Source: Croceivirga radicis
GTDB lineage: Bacteria > Bacteroidota > Bacteroidia > Flavobacteriales > Flavobacteriaceae
DNA: 64,000 bases
Reading direction: 5' to 3'
Assembly: GCF_002072105.2 (NCBI RefSeq)
Contig: NZ_MTBC01000006.1
Coordinates: 1 to 64,000 of the forward strand
Numbering within the stretch: the first letter of the stretch is position 1; every line of letters begins with the position of its first letter. Under the pieces are notes generated by a model. The model was not told where the DNA came from. It was given only the letters and a program-made list of their open reading frames with translations, and searched no databases. Of this stretch, positions 1 to 7,391 are shown in pieces. Made by a program: the position numbers and the translations under genes.

Positions 1-507
1 GGCTCCTTTGATGCCTCCAGTCCCGAAAGCCCTACGGCACACTTGCCACAAGACCATGAACCGGCCCTTCTGCCCTTCGTGGCCAAGATGCGGGAAGACC
101 TGTTGGAGTTCGACGAAAAACCAAGGCCCGTACAGATCCTAGACCAAAACGGCAAACTCCTTTTGGCCGGGGACAACCAAAGACGCTTTTTTGAGGCGGC
201 GTGGCTGCACAAGCATAACGGACGGTACTACTTCTCTTATAGTACCGGGGACACCCATTACATTTGCTATGCCATTGGGGACAGCCCTTACGGGCCGTTT
301 ACCTACGCCGGACGTATACTGGAACCCGTGGTGGGTTGGACGAGCCACCATTCCATTTGCCAGGTGGACGGACAGTGGTACCTATTCTACCATGACTCTA
401 GCTTATCCAAGGGGGTTACACACCTTAGGTCCGTGAAAATGGCGCCCATACAACACGACCCTGAAGGAAACATCAAAACCTTAAAACCCTATGGGGACTA
501 TAAATAA
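1..507 (+). CDS. GH43-family glycoside hydrolase, C-terminal part (5' end outside window)
   Basis: The frame is open from base 1, so this is the 3' end of a longer gene; an internal TTG at 43 is not a convincing start. The visible residues show the late-propeller features of GH43 enzymes: FFEAAWLHKHNGRYYFSYS, then a YGPFTYAG strand, then GWTSHHSICQVDGQWYLFYH, which ends the fifth blade. A glycan-cleaving (arabinosidase/xylosidase-type) role is inferred; substrate cannot be read from the fragment. About 57% of the first 120 bases are G or C, far above the A+T-rich genes that follow, which suggests a different origin or strong codon bias. Its last ~52 codons are copied twice downstream as gene remnants at 1771 and 3194. 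Confidence 0.75.
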   Translation, partial: GSFDASSPESPTAHLPQDHEPALLPFVAKMREDLLEFDEKPRPVQILDQNGKLLLAGDNQRRFFEAAWLHKHNGRYYFSYSTGDTHYICYAIGDSPYGPFTYAGRILEPVVGWTSHHSICQVDGQWYLFYHDSSLSKGVTHLRSVKMAPIQHDPEGNIKTLKPYGDYK

Positions 508-519
508 ATACTAAACCGT

Positions 520-575
520 GGCATTGGTTAATATTTTACAAGGTTTGAAGATATTTTCTATTTTTAACCAATGCC
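520..575 (+). promoter_or_regulatory. Inverted repeat enclosing the start codon, copy 1
   Basis: GGCATTGGTTAA at 520-531 is perfectly complemented by TTAACCAATGCC at 564-575, with 32 bases between. The ATG of the 318-residue gene (571-573) lies inside the right arm. In mRNA the arms could pair and hide the start codon; in DNA they could be two half-sites for a regulator. The loop carries AAGGTTTG (540-547), one base from the Bacteroidetes -7 box TAnnTTTG, but no well-placed -33 element was seen. Confidence 0.6.
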
Positions 576-1527
576 TAAAAACCCCGTACTTAGAGATGGA
601 CTAAAAGCCATGGCAATATTCTTGTTGCCTTTTTTATCCTATTTACATGTTTATAGTTCAAAAATCTATCATGAGTCTAATTTAATATCAACCCTATTTC
701 TTAACTATGGTGATTCTTTACATTTTGACTTTTGGGTATATTATAATTTAATACAAGTTCAAATTATCATCTCTCTTATAATTTGGCTCTATAACTGTAA
801 TGGTAAGATTCGTCTAGGGATAAAAACTATTCTTATTTGGCTGCTAATATCTGAAGTTGGACTCCTTTTAAATCTCAATTATTTTAATTCTGTAATTATT
901 AAATTTTTAGGCTTGACCCTTACTGTAATATATTTTTCTAAAGATGGACTATTAGCACTAAACAGTAAAAACTATTTCAACCTACTTCTTCTCGCACAAC
1001 CATTTTTGAACTTATCGACCATTTTTGTTCCAGAAAATTTGATTCAACTTGATTTACTCATATTAATTATTCCCAATTTTGGTTATGCCGATGTTGGTAT
1101 ATTTTTAAACACGATAGTTTTTAAATCCAACCTATTTATTATTTATTCCATATGGTTTTTAACAGAAAAACGGTGGTGGCGCTACGCCATACTTTCGCCA
1201 ATTCTTTTACTTGGAAACCAAGTGTATAACATTCTTTTTACCAAATCAAAAGCTATTGATGAAATAGAACCATACCAATCTGGTCCCTTTTTGCTAACAC
1301 TTTTAATAGTGCTTCTGCTTTTGGCAAAAGTAGCAGAGGACCAAGAAAAAATTAAGCAATTCTTGCAAAACCATTATAGAACTATAGAACATATGGTAGA
1401 GAATAGGTTTTCTAAAAGACAACAAACCATAGAAGACCATAAAAAATCAGTAAACAATAAGAAAACATTGAATAACGAGGAACTTATTGAACTAAGAGAA
1501 AAACTGGAAAACGAATTAAGAAAATAA
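571..1527 (+). CDS. Multi-pass membrane protein of unknown function, cassette copy 1
   Basis: I do not recognise this family. The 318 residues contain about seven or eight hydrophobic stretches (for example near 11-30, 63-75, 84-103, 107-123, 178-196, 206-222 and 240-253). A charged C-terminal tail of ~65 residues (254-318) looks helical or coiled-coil and probably lies in the cytoplasm. The motif FLTEKRWWRYAI, near 197-207, sits at a membrane boundary. Compared with copy 2, residues 1-36, 64-90 and the last third are nearly identical, while 37-63, 91-118 and 138-176 differ strongly. The stop codon is one base from the remnant of the convergent XRE gene. A+T content is high. An alternative start at Met14 would put the inverted repeat wholly upstream. 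No function can be assigned. Confidence 0.8.
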   Translation: MPKNPVLRDGLKAMAIFLLPFLSYLHVYSSKIYHESNLISTLFLNYGDSLHFDFWVYYNLIQVQIIISLIIWLYNCNGKIRLGIKTILIWLLISEVGLLLNLNYFNSVIIKFLGLTLTVIYFSKDGLLALNSKNYFNLLLLAQPFLNLSTIFVPENLIQLDLLILIIPNFGYADVGIFLNTIVFKSNLFIIYSIWFLTEKRWWRYAILSPILLLGNQVYNILFTKSKAIDEIEPYQSGPFLLTLLIVLLLLAKVAEDQEKIKQFLQNHYRTIEHMVENRFSKRQQTIEDHKKSVNNKKTLNNEELIELREKLENELRK

Positions 1528-1528
1528 A

Positions 1529-1731
1529 TTGTTCTTTATCGTTGTGCTTTGTATTTTCTGAACTACTTCATCCAAAAGCTTCCTAAGTTCCTTTTCTTGC
1601 CGTTCCTTAATTTTTGCTGTTACAATTCGCTCAATTTCAAGCGCTTTTCCCTTGGCAATTTATTGACCCGTATAGCTTCAATTTCCGGATTAAGCATTTA
1701 ACCTTCACCTGTTATTAACAATATTACTTTG
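1529..1731 (-). pseudogene. Remnant of XRE-type regulator 3' end, copy 1
   Basis: Aligns with the C-terminal coding part of the intact XRE gene at 4373-4575. The codon for Glu69 of the intact protein is TAA here. A one-base deletion occurs near the segment coding for the PREKELEI stretch, and the original stop codon TTA (minus strand) is TTG. The N-terminal DNA-binding half is absent. The ~40 bases that follow (1732-1770) are shared only with remnant 2. Confidence 0.75.
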
Positions 1732-1770
1732 AGTATTATCTGAGCTAGATGTAGAAACTAACCAACCGAC

Positions 1771-1928
1771 ACTCTATTTGCCAGGTGGACGGTCAGTGGT
1801 ACCTATTCTACCATGACGCTAGCTTATCCAAGGGGGTTACACACCTTAGGTCCGTGAAAATGGCTCCCATACAACACGATCCTGAAGGAAACATCAAAAC
1901 CTTAAAACCCTATGGGGACTATAAATAA
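1771..1928 (+). pseudogene. GH43 3' fragment, copy 2
   Basis: Repeats bases ~350-507 with few changes, including the final codons and the TAA, but has no upstream coding part. It supplies the leader of cassette copy 2. It is a duplication scar rather than a gene. Confidence 0.85.
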
Positions 1929-1940
1929 ATGCTAAACCGT

Positions 1941-1996
1941 GGCATTGGTTAATATTTTACAAGGTTTGAAGATATTTTCTATTTTTAACCAATGCC
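1941..1996 (+). promoter_or_regulatory. Inverted repeat enclosing the start codon, copy 2
   Basis: GGCATTGGTTAA (1941-1952) and TTAACCAATGCC (1985-1996) are unchanged from copy 1, and the ATG at 1992-1994 is again in the right arm. Confidence 0.6.
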
Positions 1997-2948
1997 AAAA
2001 AACCCCGTACTTAGAGATGGACTAAAAGCCATGGCAATATTCTTGTTGCCTTTTTTATCCTATTTACATGTTTATAGTTCAAAAATCTATCATGAGTCTA
2101 ATATAAGCCCCTTCTTGTTTTCCTTTTTTGGTGATTTTGACTTTTTTAACGCTTGGATGTATCTTAGCTTAATACGATTTCAAATTATCATCTCTCTTAT
2201 AATTTGGCTCTATAACTGTAACGGCAAGATTCATCTAGGGATAAAAACTATTCTAATTTGGATACTAATCTCTGAAATTGCATTAGTTTCTATTCTAAGT
2301 AAATCCAGTTATATAATCATTAAGTTTACAGGCATATTCCTCGCAATCATTTATTTTTCTAAAGATGGATTATTAGCACTAAACAGTAAAAACAATTCCA
2401 ATCTAATTCTTATTGCCCAACCTATTTTTAATTTGTTAACTCTTTTGGTACCAAAAAACTTGGGTCAACTTGATTTAGTTATTTTCACTATCCCCAGTTA
2501 TGGTTATTCCGAGGTTAGTATGTTTTTAAACACGATAGTTTTTAAATTCAATCTACTAATTATTTATTCCATATGGTTTTTAACAGAAAAACGATGGTGG
2601 CGCTATGCTATTATTTCACCCATTCTTTTATTGGGAAATCAAATATATAATATGCTTTTTGTAGAATCTGATGCCATTGATGAAATAGAACTATACCAAT
2701 CTGGACCCTTTTTGCTAACACTTTTAATAGTGCTTCTACTTTTGGCAAAAGTAGCAGATGACCAAGAAAAAATTAAGCAATTCTTGCAAAACCAATATAT
2801 AACTATAGAACATATGGTAGAGAATAGGTTTTCTAAAAAGCAACAAACCATAGAAGACCATAGAAAATCAGTAGACAACAAGAAAGCATTGAATAACGAG
2901 GAACTTATTGCACTAAGAAAAAAACTGGAAAACGAATTGAGAAAATAA
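1992..2948 (+). CDS. Multi-pass membrane protein of unknown function, cassette copy 2
   Basis: Paralogue of the 571 and 3415 genes, also 318 residues with no length change. Residues 1-37 match copy 1 exactly. The next segment (38-63) is the most divergent of the three copies: ISPFLFSFFGDFDFF here against LISTLFLNYGDSLHF in copy 1. The segment IIISLIIWLYNCNGKI and the C-terminal third are conserved again. The unbroken reading frame despite this divergence suggests the protein is kept under selection. The helical C-terminal tail and the RWWRYAI boundary motif are retained. The convergent neighbour is a dead XRE remnant. Function unknown. Confidence 0.8.
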   Translation: MPKNPVLRDGLKAMAIFLLPFLSYLHVYSSKIYHESNISPFLFSFFGDFDFFNAWMYLSLIRFQIIISLIIWLYNCNGKIHLGIKTILIWILISEIALVSILSKSSYIIIKFTGIFLAIIYFSKDGLLALNSKNNSNLILIAQPIFNLLTLLVPKNLGQLDLVIFTIPSYGYSEVSMFLNTIVFKFNLLIIYSIWFLTEKRWWRYAIISPILLLGNQIYNMLFVESDAIDEIELYQSGPFLLTLLIVLLLLAKVADDQEKIKQFLQNQYITIEHMVENRFSKKQQTIEDHRKSVDNKKALNNEELIALRKKLENELRK

Positions 2949-2949
2949 A

Positions 2950-3152
2950 TTACTCTTTTTCGTTTCGCTTCTTTATTTCCTTATTCACTTCTTTTAAGAG
3001 CTCCTTAAGTTCCTTTTCTTGTCGTTCCTTAATTTTTGCTGTTACAATTCGCTCAATTTCCAGCTCCTTTTCCCTTGGTAATTTATTGCCCGGTATAGCC
3101 TCAATTTCCGGATTAAGCATTTAACCTTCACCTGTTATTAACAATATTACTT
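2950..3152 (-). pseudogene. Remnant of XRE-type regulator 3' end, copy 2
   Basis: Corresponds to 4373-4575. It has the same TAA in place of the Glu69 codon as remnant 1 and the same foreign junction downstream, so remnants 1 and 2 descend from one already truncated copy. The one-base deletion of remnant 1 is absent, so the tail frame is still open. Confidence 0.75.
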
Positions 3153-3193
3153 TGAGTATAATTTGAGCTAGATGTAGAAACTAACCAACCGAC

Positions 3194-3351
3194 ACTCTAT
3201 TTGCAAGATGGACGGACAGTGGTACCTCTTCTACCATGACTCTAGCTTATCCAAGGGGGTTATACACCTTAGGTCCGTGAAAATGGCGTCCATACAACAC
3301 CATCCTGAAGGAAACATCAAAACCTTAAAACCATATGGGGACTATTAATAA
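3194..3351 (+). pseudogene. GH43 3' fragment, copy 3
   Basis: Third copy of the GH43 tail with more substitutions. GACTATTAA replaces GACTATAAATAA, so the frame would end one codon early. No start or upstream coding part. Confidence 0.8.
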
Positions 3352-3363
3352 ATGCTAAACCAT

Positions 3364-3419
3364 GGCATTGGTTAATATTCTAGAAGGTTTGAAGATATTT
3401 TCTATTTTTAACCAATGCT
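3364..3419 (+). promoter_or_regulatory. Inverted repeat enclosing the start codon, copy 3
   Basis: GGCATTGGTTAA (3364-3375) faces TTAACCAATGCT (3408-3419). The only change turns the outer G-C pair into a pair that is still G-U in RNA. The loop carries two other substitutions. The ATG at 3415-3417 is inside the arm. Confidence 0.6.
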
Positions 3420-4371
3420 TAAAAACCCCGTAATTAGAGATGGACTAAAAGCCTTGGCAATTTTCTTGTTGCCATTTTTATCCTATTTACATGTTTATAG
3501 TTCACAAATCTATCATGAGTCTAGATTAATATCAACCCTATTTTTTAACTATGGTGATTCTTTACATTTTAACGTTTGGGTATATTCTAATTTAATAGAA
3601 ATTCAAATTATCATCTCTCTCATAATTTGGCTCTATAACTGTAATGGCAAGATTCGTCTAGGGATAAAAATTATTCTTATTTGGATATTAATTTCTGAAA
3701 TTAAGCTCCTCTTAAATCTCAATGACTATAATTCAGCAATTGTTAAATTTTTAGGTGTATTTCTTACGGTATTTTATTTCTCTAAAGATGGACTATTAGC
3801 ACTAAACAGTAAAAATTATTTCAATCTAATTCTTATTGCCCTACCTATTTTAAACTTATTAACCTTTCTGGTTCCAGAAAATTTAAGCCAACTTGATTTA
3901 GTTATTTTTACTATCTCAAGTTATGGTTATAACGATGTTGGTATATTTTTAAATATGATAGTTTTTAAATTCAACCTACTAATTATTTATTCCATATGGT
4001 TTTTAACGGAGAAACGGTGGTGGCGCTACGCTATTCTTTCACCAATTCTTCTGATTGGAAACCAAATATACAATATCCTTTTTGTAGAATCTGATACCGT
4101 TGATGAAATAGAACTGTACCAATCTGGACCCTTTTTGCTAACACTTTTAATAGTGCTTCTACTTTTGGCAAAAGTAGCAGATGACCAAGAAAAAATTAAG
4201 AAATTCCTACAAAACCAATATAAAAATATAGAACAAATGGTAGAGAATAGGTTTTCTAAAAAGCAACAAGCCATAGAAGACCATAGAAAATCAGTAAACA
4301 ACAAGAAAGCTTTGAATAATGATGAACTTATAGCACTAAGAGAAAAACTGGAAAACGAATTGAGAAAATAA
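3415..4371 (+). CDS. Multi-pass membrane protein of unknown function, cassette copy 3
   Basis: Third 318-residue paralogue, next to the only intact XRE gene, so it is probably closest to the ancestral arrangement. Residues 38-63 resemble copy 1 (LISTLFFNYGDSLHF) rather than copy 2. Hydrophobic segments, the RWWRYAI motif and the charged tail ending in LREKLENELRK are conserved. Its TAA (4369-4371) is separated by one base from the stop codon of the convergent XRE gene, so transcripts from the two genes would collide or overlap. No enzymatic motif was seen. Confidence 0.8.
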   Translation: MLKNPVIRDGLKALAIFLLPFLSYLHVYSSQIYHESRLISTLFFNYGDSLHFNVWVYSNLIEIQIIISLIIWLYNCNGKIRLGIKIILIWILISEIKLLLNLNDYNSAIVKFLGVFLTVFYFSKDGLLALNSKNYFNLILIALPILNLLTFLVPENLSQLDLVIFTISSYGYNDVGIFLNMIVFKFNLLIIYSIWFLTEKRWWRYAILSPILLIGNQIYNILFVESDTVDEIELYQSGPFLLTLLIVLLLLAKVADDQEKIKKFLQNQYKNIEQMVENRFSKKQQAIEDHRKSVNNKKALNNDELIALREKLENELRK

Positions 4372-4372
4372 A

Positions 4373-4750
4373 TTACTCTTTTTCGTTTCGCTTTTTTATT
4401 TCCTTATTCACTTCCATCAAGAGCTCCTTAAGTTCCTTTTCTTGCCGTTCCTTAATTTTTGCTGTTACAATTCGCTCAATTTCCAGCTCCTTTTCCCTTG
4501 GTAATTTATTGACCCGTATAGCCTCAATTCCCGGATTAAGCATTTCACCTTCACCGGTTATTAACCATATTAAATTAAGCTGTGGGTAAGTTTTTACAAT
4601 GTTTTCGATAACATCACTACCAATAGATGCATGATTTTTTCTCATGCGAAGCGTATAACCATTACTAGCGCCAATGCTTAAATCGAACTGGCGCGCACTT
4701 AATCCTGCGTGTTCGATAAATTGCATTAAACGATCAATAGTTTTAATCAT
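4373..4750 (-). CDS. XRE-family helix-turn-helix transcriptional regulator
   Basis: 125 residues. Residues ~14-55 form a Cro/CI-like helix-turn-helix (AGLSARQFDLSIGASNGYTL), followed by the signature LIWLITGEGEML (60-71) common in small Bacteroidetes phage-type repressors. Residues ~85-125 are strongly charged and likely coiled-coil, perhaps for dimerisation. It is convergent with the third membrane-protein gene, and its 3' half was copied into the two upstream cassette junctions. A dyad ATAGT-N8-ACTAT at 4774-4791 lies just upstream and overlaps a TATATTTA -7-like box on this strand, which would suit autorepression. The target genes are not shown by the sequence. Confidence 0.8.
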   Translation of the reverse strand: MIKTIDRLMQFIEHAGLSARQFDLSIGASNGYTLRMRKNHASIGSDVIENIVKTYPQLNLIWLITGEGEMLNPGIEAIRVNKLPREKELEIERIVTAKIKERQEKELKELLMEVNKEIKKRNEKE

Positions 4751-4791: not shown

Positions 4792-4887
4792 TTAACTAGC
4801 AATTTTCATGATTTTTGAGTTGATAATGGCCCAAAAAAATAACCTATAGAAATTTATTGTATAGATTTTTTTCTATATTTGAGATGT

Positions 4888-4966
4888 GAATGCTTTATAT
4901 AAGCTCCTAATCACAAACTATCACTGTAATGAAAAGGGTATGGATTTCATGCCCTTTTCTTTTTAT
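4888..4966 (+). ncRNA. Possible small transcript ending in a terminator
   Basis: TATATTTG at 4874-4881 is a perfect TAnnTTTG box, and an intrinsic terminator follows about 55-80 bases later. Frames in between stop at once (an ATG at 4884 is followed by TGA; another at 4889 gives six codons). The nearest upstream TTG is only 14 bases from the box, so the promoter is not ideal. It diverges from the XRE gene. I do not recognise an RNA family. Confidence 0.25.
4931..4966 (+). terminator. Intrinsic terminator-like hairpin
   Basis: GAAAAGGGTATG pairs with CATGCCCTTTTC (one G-U) around a 5-base loop and runs into CTTTTTAT. It has no gene directly upstream on this strand, which is why a small transcript is suggested. 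Confidence 0.55.
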
Positions 4967-5430
4967 AAAAACTTACTCATAAAAAGCTCAGGTTTAAAAA
5001 TACCTGCCAAAATCTGATATCCTTACAACCGATTACTTTCAATAGATTTAAGAGTAATTCAGAAAAATATAAGAAAAGTAGAAGGAGCATAAGTACATGC
5101 TCAAAATAAGGAATTCCAAGCTTAAGAATTTCAAGTCTTTGGGCTAACCAATAACTAATACAGATTTAGTAAAGTACATATAGGTGATTGAAAATACCAT
5201 CCCGGGAAGGAAGGTAAAAGAATAAAGTTGGTCTCCCCCAAGACTTTCTAAATACTATTTACCAACCCTCACCTAAATGGTTTAAGTATAAAAGCTGTTC
5301 CGTTTAACAGAACTGTTATAAAAACGACAAAAATACAACTATTAGTATATCGTATAAGGAAGAATACCCTTACTGCTACGAATAAGCAAAACTAATTTAG
5401 ATGAAATAAGTAAGCTATAGGCTAATTGGC

Positions 5431-6120
5431 CTATTTTAAACTACTAAAAACCTGTGCCAACTTGTACAAATCAGTGCGTTTTTTAGTTCCTAGTTTTTGG
5501 AATACCCGTTCCGCATGGTTTTTAACAGTTTTGTCTGAAATGAAAAGTAAATCCGCTATCTCTTTTCTAGATAGTTCTTTCCCCAATAAAAAAAACACTT
5601 CTTTTTCTCTTTTAGTGAGTCTGTTAAAACGTTCAAAATATGCCTCAAACAAAGAATCTACGCCAAATATACTATCAATCTTATCTGAAAAACTTTCAAC
5701 ATTTTGTGGAAATATCGAAACCGAAATCAATTGATCATCATTCAATATTCTGGTAGATGTAAATAAATGAAAAGGTTTATCGTCTTCTGAATGCTTCCAG
5801 TCTTGAATAAAAGGAATAATCTTATCTGTATCCCCATCGCTAATTTTTTCTACCAAACTAGGGTAAGTCACCTTTAAAGTAAAGTCACTTTGATGACGTT
5901 CATAAACCGCTGTTCCCAATTCCAACAACTCTTCCATGGAGTATCTAATCAGGTCTTGACCCTGTTTAGAAATATATTCCAAACTAAGATCATGAGTAGA
6001 ATTAACATGTAAAATCCCAGGAATTAATGCTGCAAGATCGTCCAAATCTAAAACGCCTTCGTTAATTAACTGGGTCAATTTAAATAACTGTTTGGTTTCC
6101 TTAAGAACCAATTTTTTCAT
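5431..6120 (-). CDS. LuxR-type (GerE) transcriptional regulator
   Basis: 229 residues from the ATG at 6120; the two codons before it begin with TTG. Residues ~165-225 form a GerE helix-turn-helix: LTKREKEVFFLLGKELSRKE, followed by the recognition helix SDKTVKNHAERVFQKLG. The N-terminal ~150 residues resemble the PAS-like sensory part found in Bacteroidetes LuxR-like proteins, but no receiver Asp pocket is evident. The promoter side has a TATCTTTG -7 box and a dyad (6215-6239). Neighbours do not reveal its regulon. Family assignment is firm; signal unknown. Confidence 0.85.
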   Translation of the reverse strand: MKKLVLKETKQLFKLTQLINEGVLDLDDLAALIPGILHVNSTHDLSLEYISKQGQDLIRYSMEELLELGTAVYERHQSDFTLKVTYPSLVEKISDGDTDKIIPFIQDWKHSEDDKPFHLFTSTRILNDDQLISVSIFPQNVESFSDKIDSIFGVDSLFEAYFERFNRLTKREKEVFFLLGKELSRKEIADLLFISDKTVKNHAERVFQKLGTKKRTDLYKLAQVFSSLK

Positions 6121-6214
6121 CCTCAATCATTTTATGGTTAGTGCAATGACGGTCGGTTGTATTTGATTGAAGGTTTACGGTATTTTAATGATCTGATTTT
6201 TTTTATAGCGATTG

Positions 6215-6239
6215 CAAAGATAAAATTTCAAATGAAATT
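6215..6239 (-). promoter_or_regulatory. -7 box and dyad upstream of the LuxR-type gene
   Basis: CAAAGATA (6215-6222) reads TATCTTTG on the minus strand, a perfect TAnnTTTG. Right upstream lies AATTTCA-AA-TGAAATT (6224-6239), a 7-bp dyad suited to a dimeric regulator. No good -33 TTG was found. Confidence 0.4.
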
Positions 6240-6296
6240 GAGACTTTATACTATATATTTAGCAGAAAGATTAGTTAAACAACATAAAATAATTGT

Positions 6297-7391
6297 TTAA
6301 CTACATTCATCTAGTAATTCTTGTGGCCTATATTTTTCTAAAAGTGCCATAAGCGCCTTTTCATTTGGCTGTAAGCCATTATCCGTAGGTTTTTGAAAGG
6401 CATCTACCATTTTGAAATATGTAAGAATAGCATCATTCAAATACACTTCTTTTATAAGTGGATGCACGTAATAATTCTTACACACATTTTTGGTATTGTT
6501 TAACTCTTTGGCAGCGGCGGCAACTGCATGTGACCAATTTTCTTCTTTCTTTTTCTGACTGTGTACTGTTGGCAATTGTTTTAAAAAATCAAAAACTATT
6601 AAACTAGCCGCCCATGTCCTAAAATCTTTTGCTGAGAAAATTGCCCCGCTTATGTTTTGAATATAGGCATTAACCATACCGCTGTCTATTTTTTGTTTCT
6701 CCCCATTTTCATCAAAATATTGAAACAATTCCCAGCCTGGAATTTCCTCGCATTGATTAACCAATTTGGCCAACTTTTTATTTTTAATGGTTATGTTATG
6801 CTCTTTTCCCCTCTTGCCAATAAAATTAAATTTGATTTTATCTTTAACTATTGACACATGCCTATTTCTTAACGTAGATAATCCGTAGGTCTTATTTTGT
6901 TTAGCGTAACAGGCATTTCCTACCCTAATATGGCTTTCTTCTAGAAGCCTAACAACCAATGCCAAAACTTTTTCCTTGCTCCAATTTTTTCTTTCTAAAT
7001 CTTCCTGGCTATGTTTTCTTATTTGAGGAAGCTTTTCTGCAAAGGCCAACATTTTATAGAACTTGGTTTGCTTTCTTAGCTTAAGCCATTTTTCATGATA
7101 CCTGTATTGTTTTCTTTTTTTGGCATCTCTGCCGGTGGCCTGTAAGTGCGCATTTTCAAGTTCTGCTATTCTTACCTGACTCCAAGCAGGAGGTAATACT
7201 AGCTTTTTAATTCTATCAAGTGTTTGTCTTTCTTTATAGGGAGTTTCACCTTTTAGGTAAACCGTAGTGTCTTTTATTTTTTTTCTGGTAATTGTTAATA
7301 TTTCTGGTGTGGTATATACCAAATTGTGCGCGTCTAAAACTTCTTCCGGGGCTTTGTAAAATTTAGCTACGTATGCATTTAAATCTTTCAT
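6297..7391 (-). CDS. DNA topoisomerase IB (poxvirus type)
   Basis: 364 residues from the ATG at 7391. Relaxes supercoils through a 3'-phosphotyrosine intermediate. The expected catalytic set is visible: Arg in EESHIRVGN, Lys in the TYGLSTLRNRHV hairpin region, Arg in SAKDFRTWAAS, and the nucleophilic Tyr in CKNYYVHPLI near the C-terminus. Length fits the bacterial TopIB family. The frame extends 20 codons further to 7451, but that extension reads through a terminator-like hairpin, so the internal Met was chosen. The flanking genes suggest a stress or housekeeping context, without an operon. Confidence 0.92.
   Translation of the reverse strand: MKDLNAYVAKFYKAPEEVLDAHNLVYTTPEILTITRKKIKDTTVYLKGETPYKERQTLDRIKKLVLPPAWSQVRIAELENAHLQATGRDAKKRKQYRYHEKWLKLRKQTKFYKMLAFAEKLPQIRKHSQEDLERKNWSKEKVLALVVRLLEESHIRVGNACYAKQNKTYGLSTLRNRHVSIVKDKIKFNFIGKRGKEHNITIKNKKLAKLVNQCEEIPGWELFQYFDENGEKQKIDSGMVNAYIQNISGAIFSAKDFRTWAASLIVFDFLKQLPTVHSQKKKEENWSHAVAAAAKELNNTKNVCKNYYVHPLIKEVYLNDAILTYFKMVDAFQKPTDNGLQPNEKALMALLEKYRPQELLDECS

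Follow-up and report, generated by a model that had tools for sequence, protein, structure and literature searches.

A triplicated membrane-protein gene beside a phage-type repressor in Croceivirga radicis, possibly an array for immunity or sensing

Results

Organization of the array

We analysed the first 64,000 nucleotides (nt) of contig C17 (NZ_MTBC01000006.1) of the Croceivirga radicis genome (~3.6 Mb), referred to below as the window, which begins with three tandem genes for a membrane protein (M; copies A, B and C) and a convergent gene for a phage-type repressor (XRE). The triplication proposed in the initial annotation is real: three open reading frames (ORFs) of exactly 318 codons each lie on the plus strand at 571-1527 (A), 1992-2948 (B) and 3415-4371 (C), 300-nt repeat families recur at the reported spacings of 1421 and 1423 nt, and the copies are separated by repeats of the GH43 tail and of the XRE 3′ end, as had been stated. 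The protein has eight predicted transmembrane helices and a cytosolic tail at residues ~256-318. The intact XRE gene (125 residues) occupies 4373-4750 on the minus strand, with 1 nt between its stop codon and that of copy C. Upstream of the array, positions 1-507 (plus strand) carry the 3′ part of a GH43 gene (Pfam GH43 E 1.2e-9) whose 5′ end lies beyond the contig start, and the final ~160 nt of this gene recur downstream (repeat family D1).

Between copies A and B lie a fragment of the XRE gene 3′ end (1528-1733, minus strand, repeats D5 and D6), a filler (1734-1768) and a GH43 tail fragment (1769-1928, plus strand). Between copies B and C lie an XRE 3′-end fragment with one internal stop (2949-3156, minus strand, XRE profile positions 58-127), a near-identical filler (3157-3191) and another GH43 tail fragment (3192-3350, plus strand). 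As the ~35-nt filler is common to both junctions, with few differences when compared by eye, homologous recombination is the most likely source of the second extra copy, and the simplest history of the array is one illegitimate event followed by homologous amplification. The C. radicis genome holds no further M copies; its only other match is a single-unit one of 24% identity (C15:89877). The left boundary of the array is provisional, since the window starts contig C17 and contig C18 (L036 1-121) opens with yet another GH43 3′ tail, the fourth, which matches window 380-500 at 98% identity and has other genes after it. Possibly the GH43 region is a repeat at which the assembly broke.

The copies diverge by recombination

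Selection for extra copies had been suggested on the ground that the M frames are intact while the flanking pieces decayed. This argument did not hold, as the flanks are less diverged than the gene: identity between copies is 93-97% for the GH43 tail and intergenic DNA and 87-94% for the XRE tails, whereas 60-nt windows within M drop to 52% identity. Selection itself is supported by other evidence, namely the recurrence of arrays described below and pairwise ratios of nonsynonymous to synonymous divergence (dN/dS) of 0.38, 0.28 and 0.31, significantly below the expectation for a ratio of 1 (dN<dS, Fisher p 3e-7 to 5e-11).

Synonymous divergence is unevenly spread along the gene. It is 0.05-0.15 in codons 1-35; in codons 36-60 it is 0.0 between A and C and 0.84-0.90 in pairs with B; and it is 0.11-0.17 in codons 61-90, 0.39-1.30 in codons 91-240 and 0.09-0.23 in codons 241-318. 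The closest pair shifts accordingly, from A and B up to codon 35 to A and C in codons 36-60 and B and C in codons 200-240. The maximum chi-square of 36.3 exceeded the permutation maximum of 23.7 (5000 permutations), pointing to recombination among the window copies, and the clustering of third-position differences was above that in all 5000 simulations. Between A and B the GH43 scraps differ at 6 of 159 positions, vs ~41 of 100 synonymous sites in codons 91-240 (p 4e-14). Had the copies come from simple duplication, every part would be of the same age; hence either the interior was exchanged with diverged sequence or the flanks were homogenised. As the gene scraps, presumably free to drift, are less diverged than the gene interior, the copies are, judging by their sequences, mosaics whose variation was made by recombination. 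Positive selection was considered and rejected, as whole-gene dN/dS is below 1 in all three pairs and the divergence is attributed to recombination; codons 36-60 of A and C differ by six nonsynonymous and no synonymous changes.

The variable residues concentrate in the predicted outer loops (53/110), compared with 26/137 in the inner loops and tail and 13/71 in the membrane cores. The odds ratio for the outer loops is 4.0 (p 1.3e-6), to be read with sites that recombination makes non-independent and with loop limits set by a hydropathy threshold that was chosen after the variable regions had been seen, so that the loops include membrane flanks.

M is a two-unit protein below the cut-offs of known families

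M had been described as belonging to no recognised family, and indeed it falls below every cut-off in Pfam, NCBIfam, PADLOC and PHROGs. The SdpI family was absent from its Pfam hits, both for the window copies at E up to 5 and for the searched relatives at E up to 1. Averaging hydropathy over 15 sequences, we obtained eight membrane segments and loops that follow the positive-inside rule, and the AlphaFold model (mean predicted local distance difference test score 89.7, predicted template modelling score 0.81) has eight membrane-length helices and a long cytosolic tail, into which the last helix (residues 233 to 296) extends. Foldseek returned no significant match. Our literature search, confined to open-licence PMC papers, listed no title on the family, which does not show its absence from print.

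M consists of two copies of a four-helix unit. The core domain occurs alone in proteins of ~180 residues and twice in proteins of ~400 residues, and the diverged N-terminal half of the 318-345-residue form matches single units (hhalign probability 98.6, E 4.8e-16).

M and XRE form a recurrent pair

At 1e-3 the M profile matched 274 of 397 genomes of the family Flavobacteriaceae, each with some kind of family member, and many of the matches listed are single-unit relatives. The two-unit form was found in 7 of the 11 genomes of the genus group (G000, the genome of the window, to G010, Flavobacterium sp. ASW18X), in 1 to 3 copies each, ASW18X having three, and arrays recur in several lineages. 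We examined 66 named loci and the window; 26 loci, from 24 genomes (L063/L109 and L085/L113 share assemblies), have an intact long M of 317 residues or more. XRE lies convergent after the last M copy in 25 of these, and the remaining one, L054, is cut by a contig end. The gaps between M and XRE range from -18 to +44 nt, except in L117 (114) and L101 (244).

Starting from the repressor gave the same association. XRE matched 68 of the 397 family genomes at 1e-10, of which the 24 with only weaker matches were left out. The matches listed include 46 strong XRE stretches (E 1e-41 or better), six seen earlier and 40 fetched. All six have M opposite, as do 36 of the 40, three of them (L168, L175, L188) with M of unusual length; the others end at contig ends (L172, L179) or lack M (L180, L183). 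Twelve of the 40 coincide with named loci and 28 are independent. At 1e-20, only the C. radicis genome matched XRE among 295 genomes of the class, at least eight of them from the family of the window. XRE and the M body co-vary more than a species marker accounts for (partial Mantel 0.47, 0/2000 permutations, 32 loci).

M takes several forms opposite XRE: two separate one-unit genes (L187, L190-L193, L195) or four (L194), a fused gene of ~400 residues, and arrays with as many as four such fused genes (L169, L181). The reverse arrangement is seen in L183 6053-7881, where three tandem XRE-type genes have no adjacent long M. All three M frames of the window are intact. Frame disruption in relatives, named in the initial annotation as a refuting observation, occurs in one: at L059 4680-6549, in an uncultured Croceitalea assembly, an M copy is split by an insertion that by eye codes for a transposase-like protein.

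Single-unit relatives have other surroundings. One of ~180 residues (e.g., L047 3959-4501, and in other family genomes) reaches no Pfam cut-off. In the loci inspected, single-unit relatives adjoin genes that we take to be alanine dehydrogenase-like, tsaE-like and PorX-like. Another relative, of ~172 residues, occurs in L064, L089 and L103 (M 5911-6441), with a different helix-turn-helix (HTH) gene ~0.8-1.5 kb away, near presumed mutS-like genes.

A DNA box precedes XRE, and exporters adjoin the pair in some relatives

The box TAGAAAATA or, as a dyad, TAGA-N6-TCTA is enriched upstream of XRE and also lies before M genes of the genus group. Within 150 nt upstream, exact TAGAAAATA was found for 17 of 25 XRE genes, 10 of 37 long M genes, 0 of 64 short M genes and 7 of 389 other ORFs, with shuffle means of 0.2-0.6. 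In the window an exact box stands 19 nt before the ATG of each copy, at 552-560 (minus strand) for A, 1973-1981 for B and 3396-3404 for C. These are three of the ten exact boxes before M; six others are in L054, L056 and L058 and one in L115. The 28 independent loci gave exact boxes for 14 of 29 XRE genes, 0 of 41 M genes opposite XRE, 0 of 21 core M genes and 1 of 150 others. Counts for the dyad TAGA-N6-TCTA were 13/29 (XRE), 4/41 (M) and 5/150 (other), and those for boxes with one mismatch were 25/29, 15/41 and 48/150. With the box enriched upstream of its own gene, XRE may be an autorepressor that would bind it.

Beyond XRE, an operon with HlyD and a C39 exporter was found in eight of the 26 named loci (L053, L055, L056, L058, L061, L076, L079, L101). 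These operons usually include an HTH protein of ~103 residues, and the exporter frame of L056 has only 225 codons. The 40 fetched XRE loci include seven with an exporter (L157, L158, L160, L161, L167, L170, L172) and 12 with the HTH gene only. In L054, L085, L109 and L113 there is under 1 kb or nothing beyond XRE, and no exporter lies beyond XRE in the stretches examined of the window and of L052 (ASW18X). The L058 exporter scores above the cut-off of TIGR01193 (bacteriocin_ABC), small double-glycine peptides follow the exporter in several loci, and a CPBP-like protease lies beyond XRE in L055. Across the ten XRE-HlyD regions, an exact box stands 27-36 nt before HlyD in four (L055, L056, L058, L061) and a one-mismatch box, of a kind common by chance, 27-65 nt before it in L053, L079, L049 and L158; none was found near HlyD in L101 and L172. 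The C. radicis genome has, on contig C16 (L196 7202-12303), a separate C39 exporter with an HlyD-like ORF and a cysteine-rich double-glycine peptide of 62 residues.

Tails are often more alike within arrays than bodies

In the tree of the N-terminal part, copies of the Croceivirga-group arrays pair across species (supports 0.93-0.97), while in the tail tree two L058 copies pair with each other (0.97), as do two L054 copies (0.94), and the third copy of L054 remains with L056. In each of L052, L054, L056, L058, L181 and L189, one or more copy pairs combine a tail dS of 0.34-0.96 with a body dS from 1.8 to saturated. With the window included, seven of 11 arrays have a homogenised tail on an older body in at least one copy pair. 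Arrays were monophyletic in 3/10 cases in the body tree and in 7/10 in the tail tree, some with weak support (L058 0.57, L169 0.79).

Counterparts in phages

A one-unit homologue of M is encoded by the isolated Cellulophaga phage Ingeline, which carries an integrase, M (168 residues), a 67-residue tail-like ORF and a convergent HTH regulator. This homologue is 45% identical to that of L202; in the Ingeline record (L203 8004-8510) it is annotated as two hypothetical proteins, and one frame of 168 codons is open. The section of the phage description consulted calls Ingeline potentially temperate, from its integrase and LuxR (PMC8776804). Three IMG/VR contigs (L202, L204, L205) likewise show M, a small ORF and a convergent HTH gene.

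A profile of the M tail matched the small ORFs of Ingeline (27.1 bits) and L205 (22.7 bits), with a maximum of 11.7 over 1000 shuffles, and gave 15.2 bits for L202 and 14.6 and 11.1 for L204, with a maximum of 10.3 over 1500 shuffles. Residues 1-72 of the window XRE are 41.7% identical to the Ingeline regulator (E 7e-11), so that it shares HTH homology with phage repressors. The XRE profile matched the regulators of Ingeline (E 7.3e-23), L202 (2e-15) and L205 (4e-14), and left that of L204 unmatched. A position between integrase and repressor was found for the Ingeline homologue only. The window protein of 318 residues matched nothing in the phage or plasmid collections, and its array does not lie in a prophage lysogeny module, as judged from neighbours up to 9.8 kb, among which no phage genes were seen. 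The ORFs listed near the bacterial pairs likewise showed no phage structural genes, though no systematic prophage search was made there.

Discussion

A possible repressor-coupled membrane array

The interpretation that we favour, and hold to be possible though short of probable, is that the locus is an array of membrane proteins for immunity or sensing, coupled to a repressor and working like SdpI/SdpR. M would serve in recognition as a polytopic protein of the inner membrane and be coupled to the XRE next to it, with its variable loops facing out and its helical tail facing in. XRE would repress its own gene via TAGA-N6-TCTA-type boxes and, in this genus group, also the M genes and the peptide-exporter operon where present. 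An extracytoplasmic ligand, which would most likely be a small peptide with an antibacterial or signalling role, would engage the outer face of M; the engaged protein would protect the membrane and its tail, by acting on XRE, would relieve repression. Immunity would thus rise when the threat is present, which is the SdpI/SdpR logic. Extra copies with different outer faces would widen the range recognised, recombination would keep the inner tail alike, and the window array, with no adjoining exporter, would be an orphan.

SdpI/SdpR would be the nearest mechanism, and the recombining immunity strings of type VII secretion systems (T7SS) the nearest evolutionary pattern; we claim membership in neither. 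The part of the Bacillus subtilis study used here describes a polytopic membrane protein that is paired with a small autorepressor next to the operon of a secreted toxic peptide (PMC1626106), and M is likewise polytopic, paired with a small repressor and, in some relatives, beside peptide-export genes. Unlike SdpI, M has no SdpI-family match and stands in variable arrays. SdpR is an ArsR-type protein, whereas XRE is of the phage-type HTH class. The excerpted T7SS study describes the esaG and tipC strings as paralogues that differ from one another, with some blocks conserved and others variable, and that recombine among copies, and its membrane-protein family tsaI as showing little recombination (PMC9484751). 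The window array resembles esaG and tipC in having non-identical tandem copies that recombine (maximum chi-square, tail conversion), as do M arrays elsewhere, and differs in its proteins, its Bacteroidota host, its repressor partner and the absence of a T7SS. The C39 exporter, HlyD and small double-glycine peptides beyond XRE in some relatives recall class II bacteriocin loci; unlike these, the window locus has no exporter set and M matches no known immunity family.

Several observations weigh against this interpretation. The single-unit relative near alanine dehydrogenase is widespread, which suggests an earlier role of another kind. Only eight of the 26 named loci have an exporter beyond XRE, and in ten further ones there is only the small HTH gene. 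Six peptides were tested and none scored above curated cut-offs (best PF10439 E 1.6e-5, TIGR03949 E 3.4e-4), and neither M nor XRE is among the ORFs listed beside the C39 exporter on C16. Exact boxes before M belong mainly to a single genus group, with nine of the ten in the window and three Croceivirga-group genomes; in the independent loci they precede none of the 41 M genes, many of which are internal to arrays, and their one-mismatch boxes are near the background of other ORFs. TAGAAAATA alone is not specific, given nine copies in the whole 64-kb window vs 2.3 expected, six of them away from the M copies. Tail homogenisation is absent in four of the 11 arrays (L053, L158, which equals L076, L169 and L194) and in other pairs of L054, L058 and L181. 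With the M body controlled for, the M tail and the XRE tail show no co-variation (r 0.002, p 0.48), so their co-evolution is unsupported and contact between tail and XRE stays hypothetical.

Alternative explanations

The initial annotation had proposed an immunity, exclusion or surface-variation system. The phage-like XRE, the phage one-unit M with convergent repressor in Ingeline and three viral contigs, the arrays beside bacteriocin-type exporters in at least eight of the 26 named loci and the recurrence in lineages all lend some support to it as a putative function. The strongest rival to SdpI/SdpR-like coupling, because of Ingeline, is phage superinfection exclusion or lysogeny control, according to which M, its tail and the repressor belong together as a module of phage immunity regions, domesticated in the bacterial arrays so as to block incoming phages at the membrane. 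The gene sets of Ingeline and of L202, L204 and L205, and the tail-like small ORFs of Ingeline and L205, agree with it. It has a parallel in ltp of TP-J34, a superinfection-exclusion gene that, in the portion of the report consulted, lies in a temperate-phage lysogeny module and codes for a membrane-associated product (PMC3952083), much as the Ingeline homologue is a membrane protein between integrase and regulator. Ltp, however, is a lipoprotein, whereas M is polytopic and the bacterial M arrays, for which exclusion is hypothetical, are chromosomal. The absence of phage or plasmid matches to the window protein, the metabolic genes adjoining the arrays of the window and ASW18X, where no phage structural genes were seen among the listed ORFs (again with no systematic prophage search), and the box before exporter operons, which fits peptides better than phages, make exclusion fairly unlikely in our view.

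M could also be a sensor of the envelope or of a peptide signal, as in quorum sensing or membrane stress, with no immunity role, copies that differ in input and XRE as the output. A widespread single-unit relative, family matches in 274 of 397 genomes and an XRE box before XRE and some exporters would suit such a sensor. Conflict genes are the more usual setting for outer loops that diversify and arrays that expand repeatedly; the tandem T7SS immunity paralogues, so far as the excerpt describes them (PMC9484751), are a precedent, and we think a pure sensor unlikely. Neutral or dosage-driven amplification of an ordinary membrane protein would account for the single filler common to the junctions, as unequal crossing-over predicts, and for the split copy in L059. 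It is very improbable in light of the dN/dS of 0.28-0.38 (p down to 5e-11), the synonymous divergence of the interior above that of the GH43 scraps, and arrays in several lineages of which only 3/10 are monophyletic in the body tree.

A broader proposal is at this point speculative and on balance doubtful: that an outward-variable receptor, a detachable cytosolic tail and a phage-type repressor make up an undescribed three-part module, common to flavobacterial phages and bacteriocin-type loci and chromosomally expanded into recombining receptor arrays. It would be a membrane-coupled repressor switch in which recombination gives new outer specificities with one common inner output. The locus suggests a testable function for an unnamed membrane family that matches 274 of the 397 sampled family genomes. 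Related repressors connect the immunity regions of phages with loci for peptide antagonism, and the mosaic DNA allows variation of the outer parts and homogenisation of the inner ones to be read directly. Marine flavobacteria play a major part in algal blooms, yet to our knowledge their peptide weapons and their defences against phages are poorly known.

Other features of the locus

Upstream of XRE, at 4862-4875 (plus strand), lies a dyad, TAGATTTTTTTCTA, that overlaps a -7-like element, TATATTTG; TATAGATTTTTTTCTATATTT is identical in ASW18X and the following base differs. It is followed, divergently from XRE, by a candidate, as yet unproven, small RNA at 4886-4965 (plus strand, z -4.8) that would end at an intrinsic terminator (stem 4931-4959). 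The corresponding region of ASW18X (L052 5278-5400 vs window 4862-4970) has the same dyad, a conserved ATCACAAnCTATCACT and a terminator-like hairpin of different sequence (z -4.7). Rfam DapZ scored 28.1 bits on this candidate, below the gathering score of 56, and the core motif of the candidate was found in 2 of 99 genomes, G000 and G010.

An inverted repeat read from the sequence at 520-575 (plus strand; 12-nt arms at 520-531 and 564-575) overlaps the start codon of copy A with its 3′ arm. It is identical in copy B and has two mismatches at the arm end in copy C. The predicted RNA fold of 512-600 has -20.5 kcal/mol (z -2.8), and the repeat could form an RNA hairpin across the start codon or be a DNA site. 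The neighbours up to 9.8 kb include GH43, LuxR-type, topoisomerase-like and kinase-like ORFs, names that are partly our presumption.

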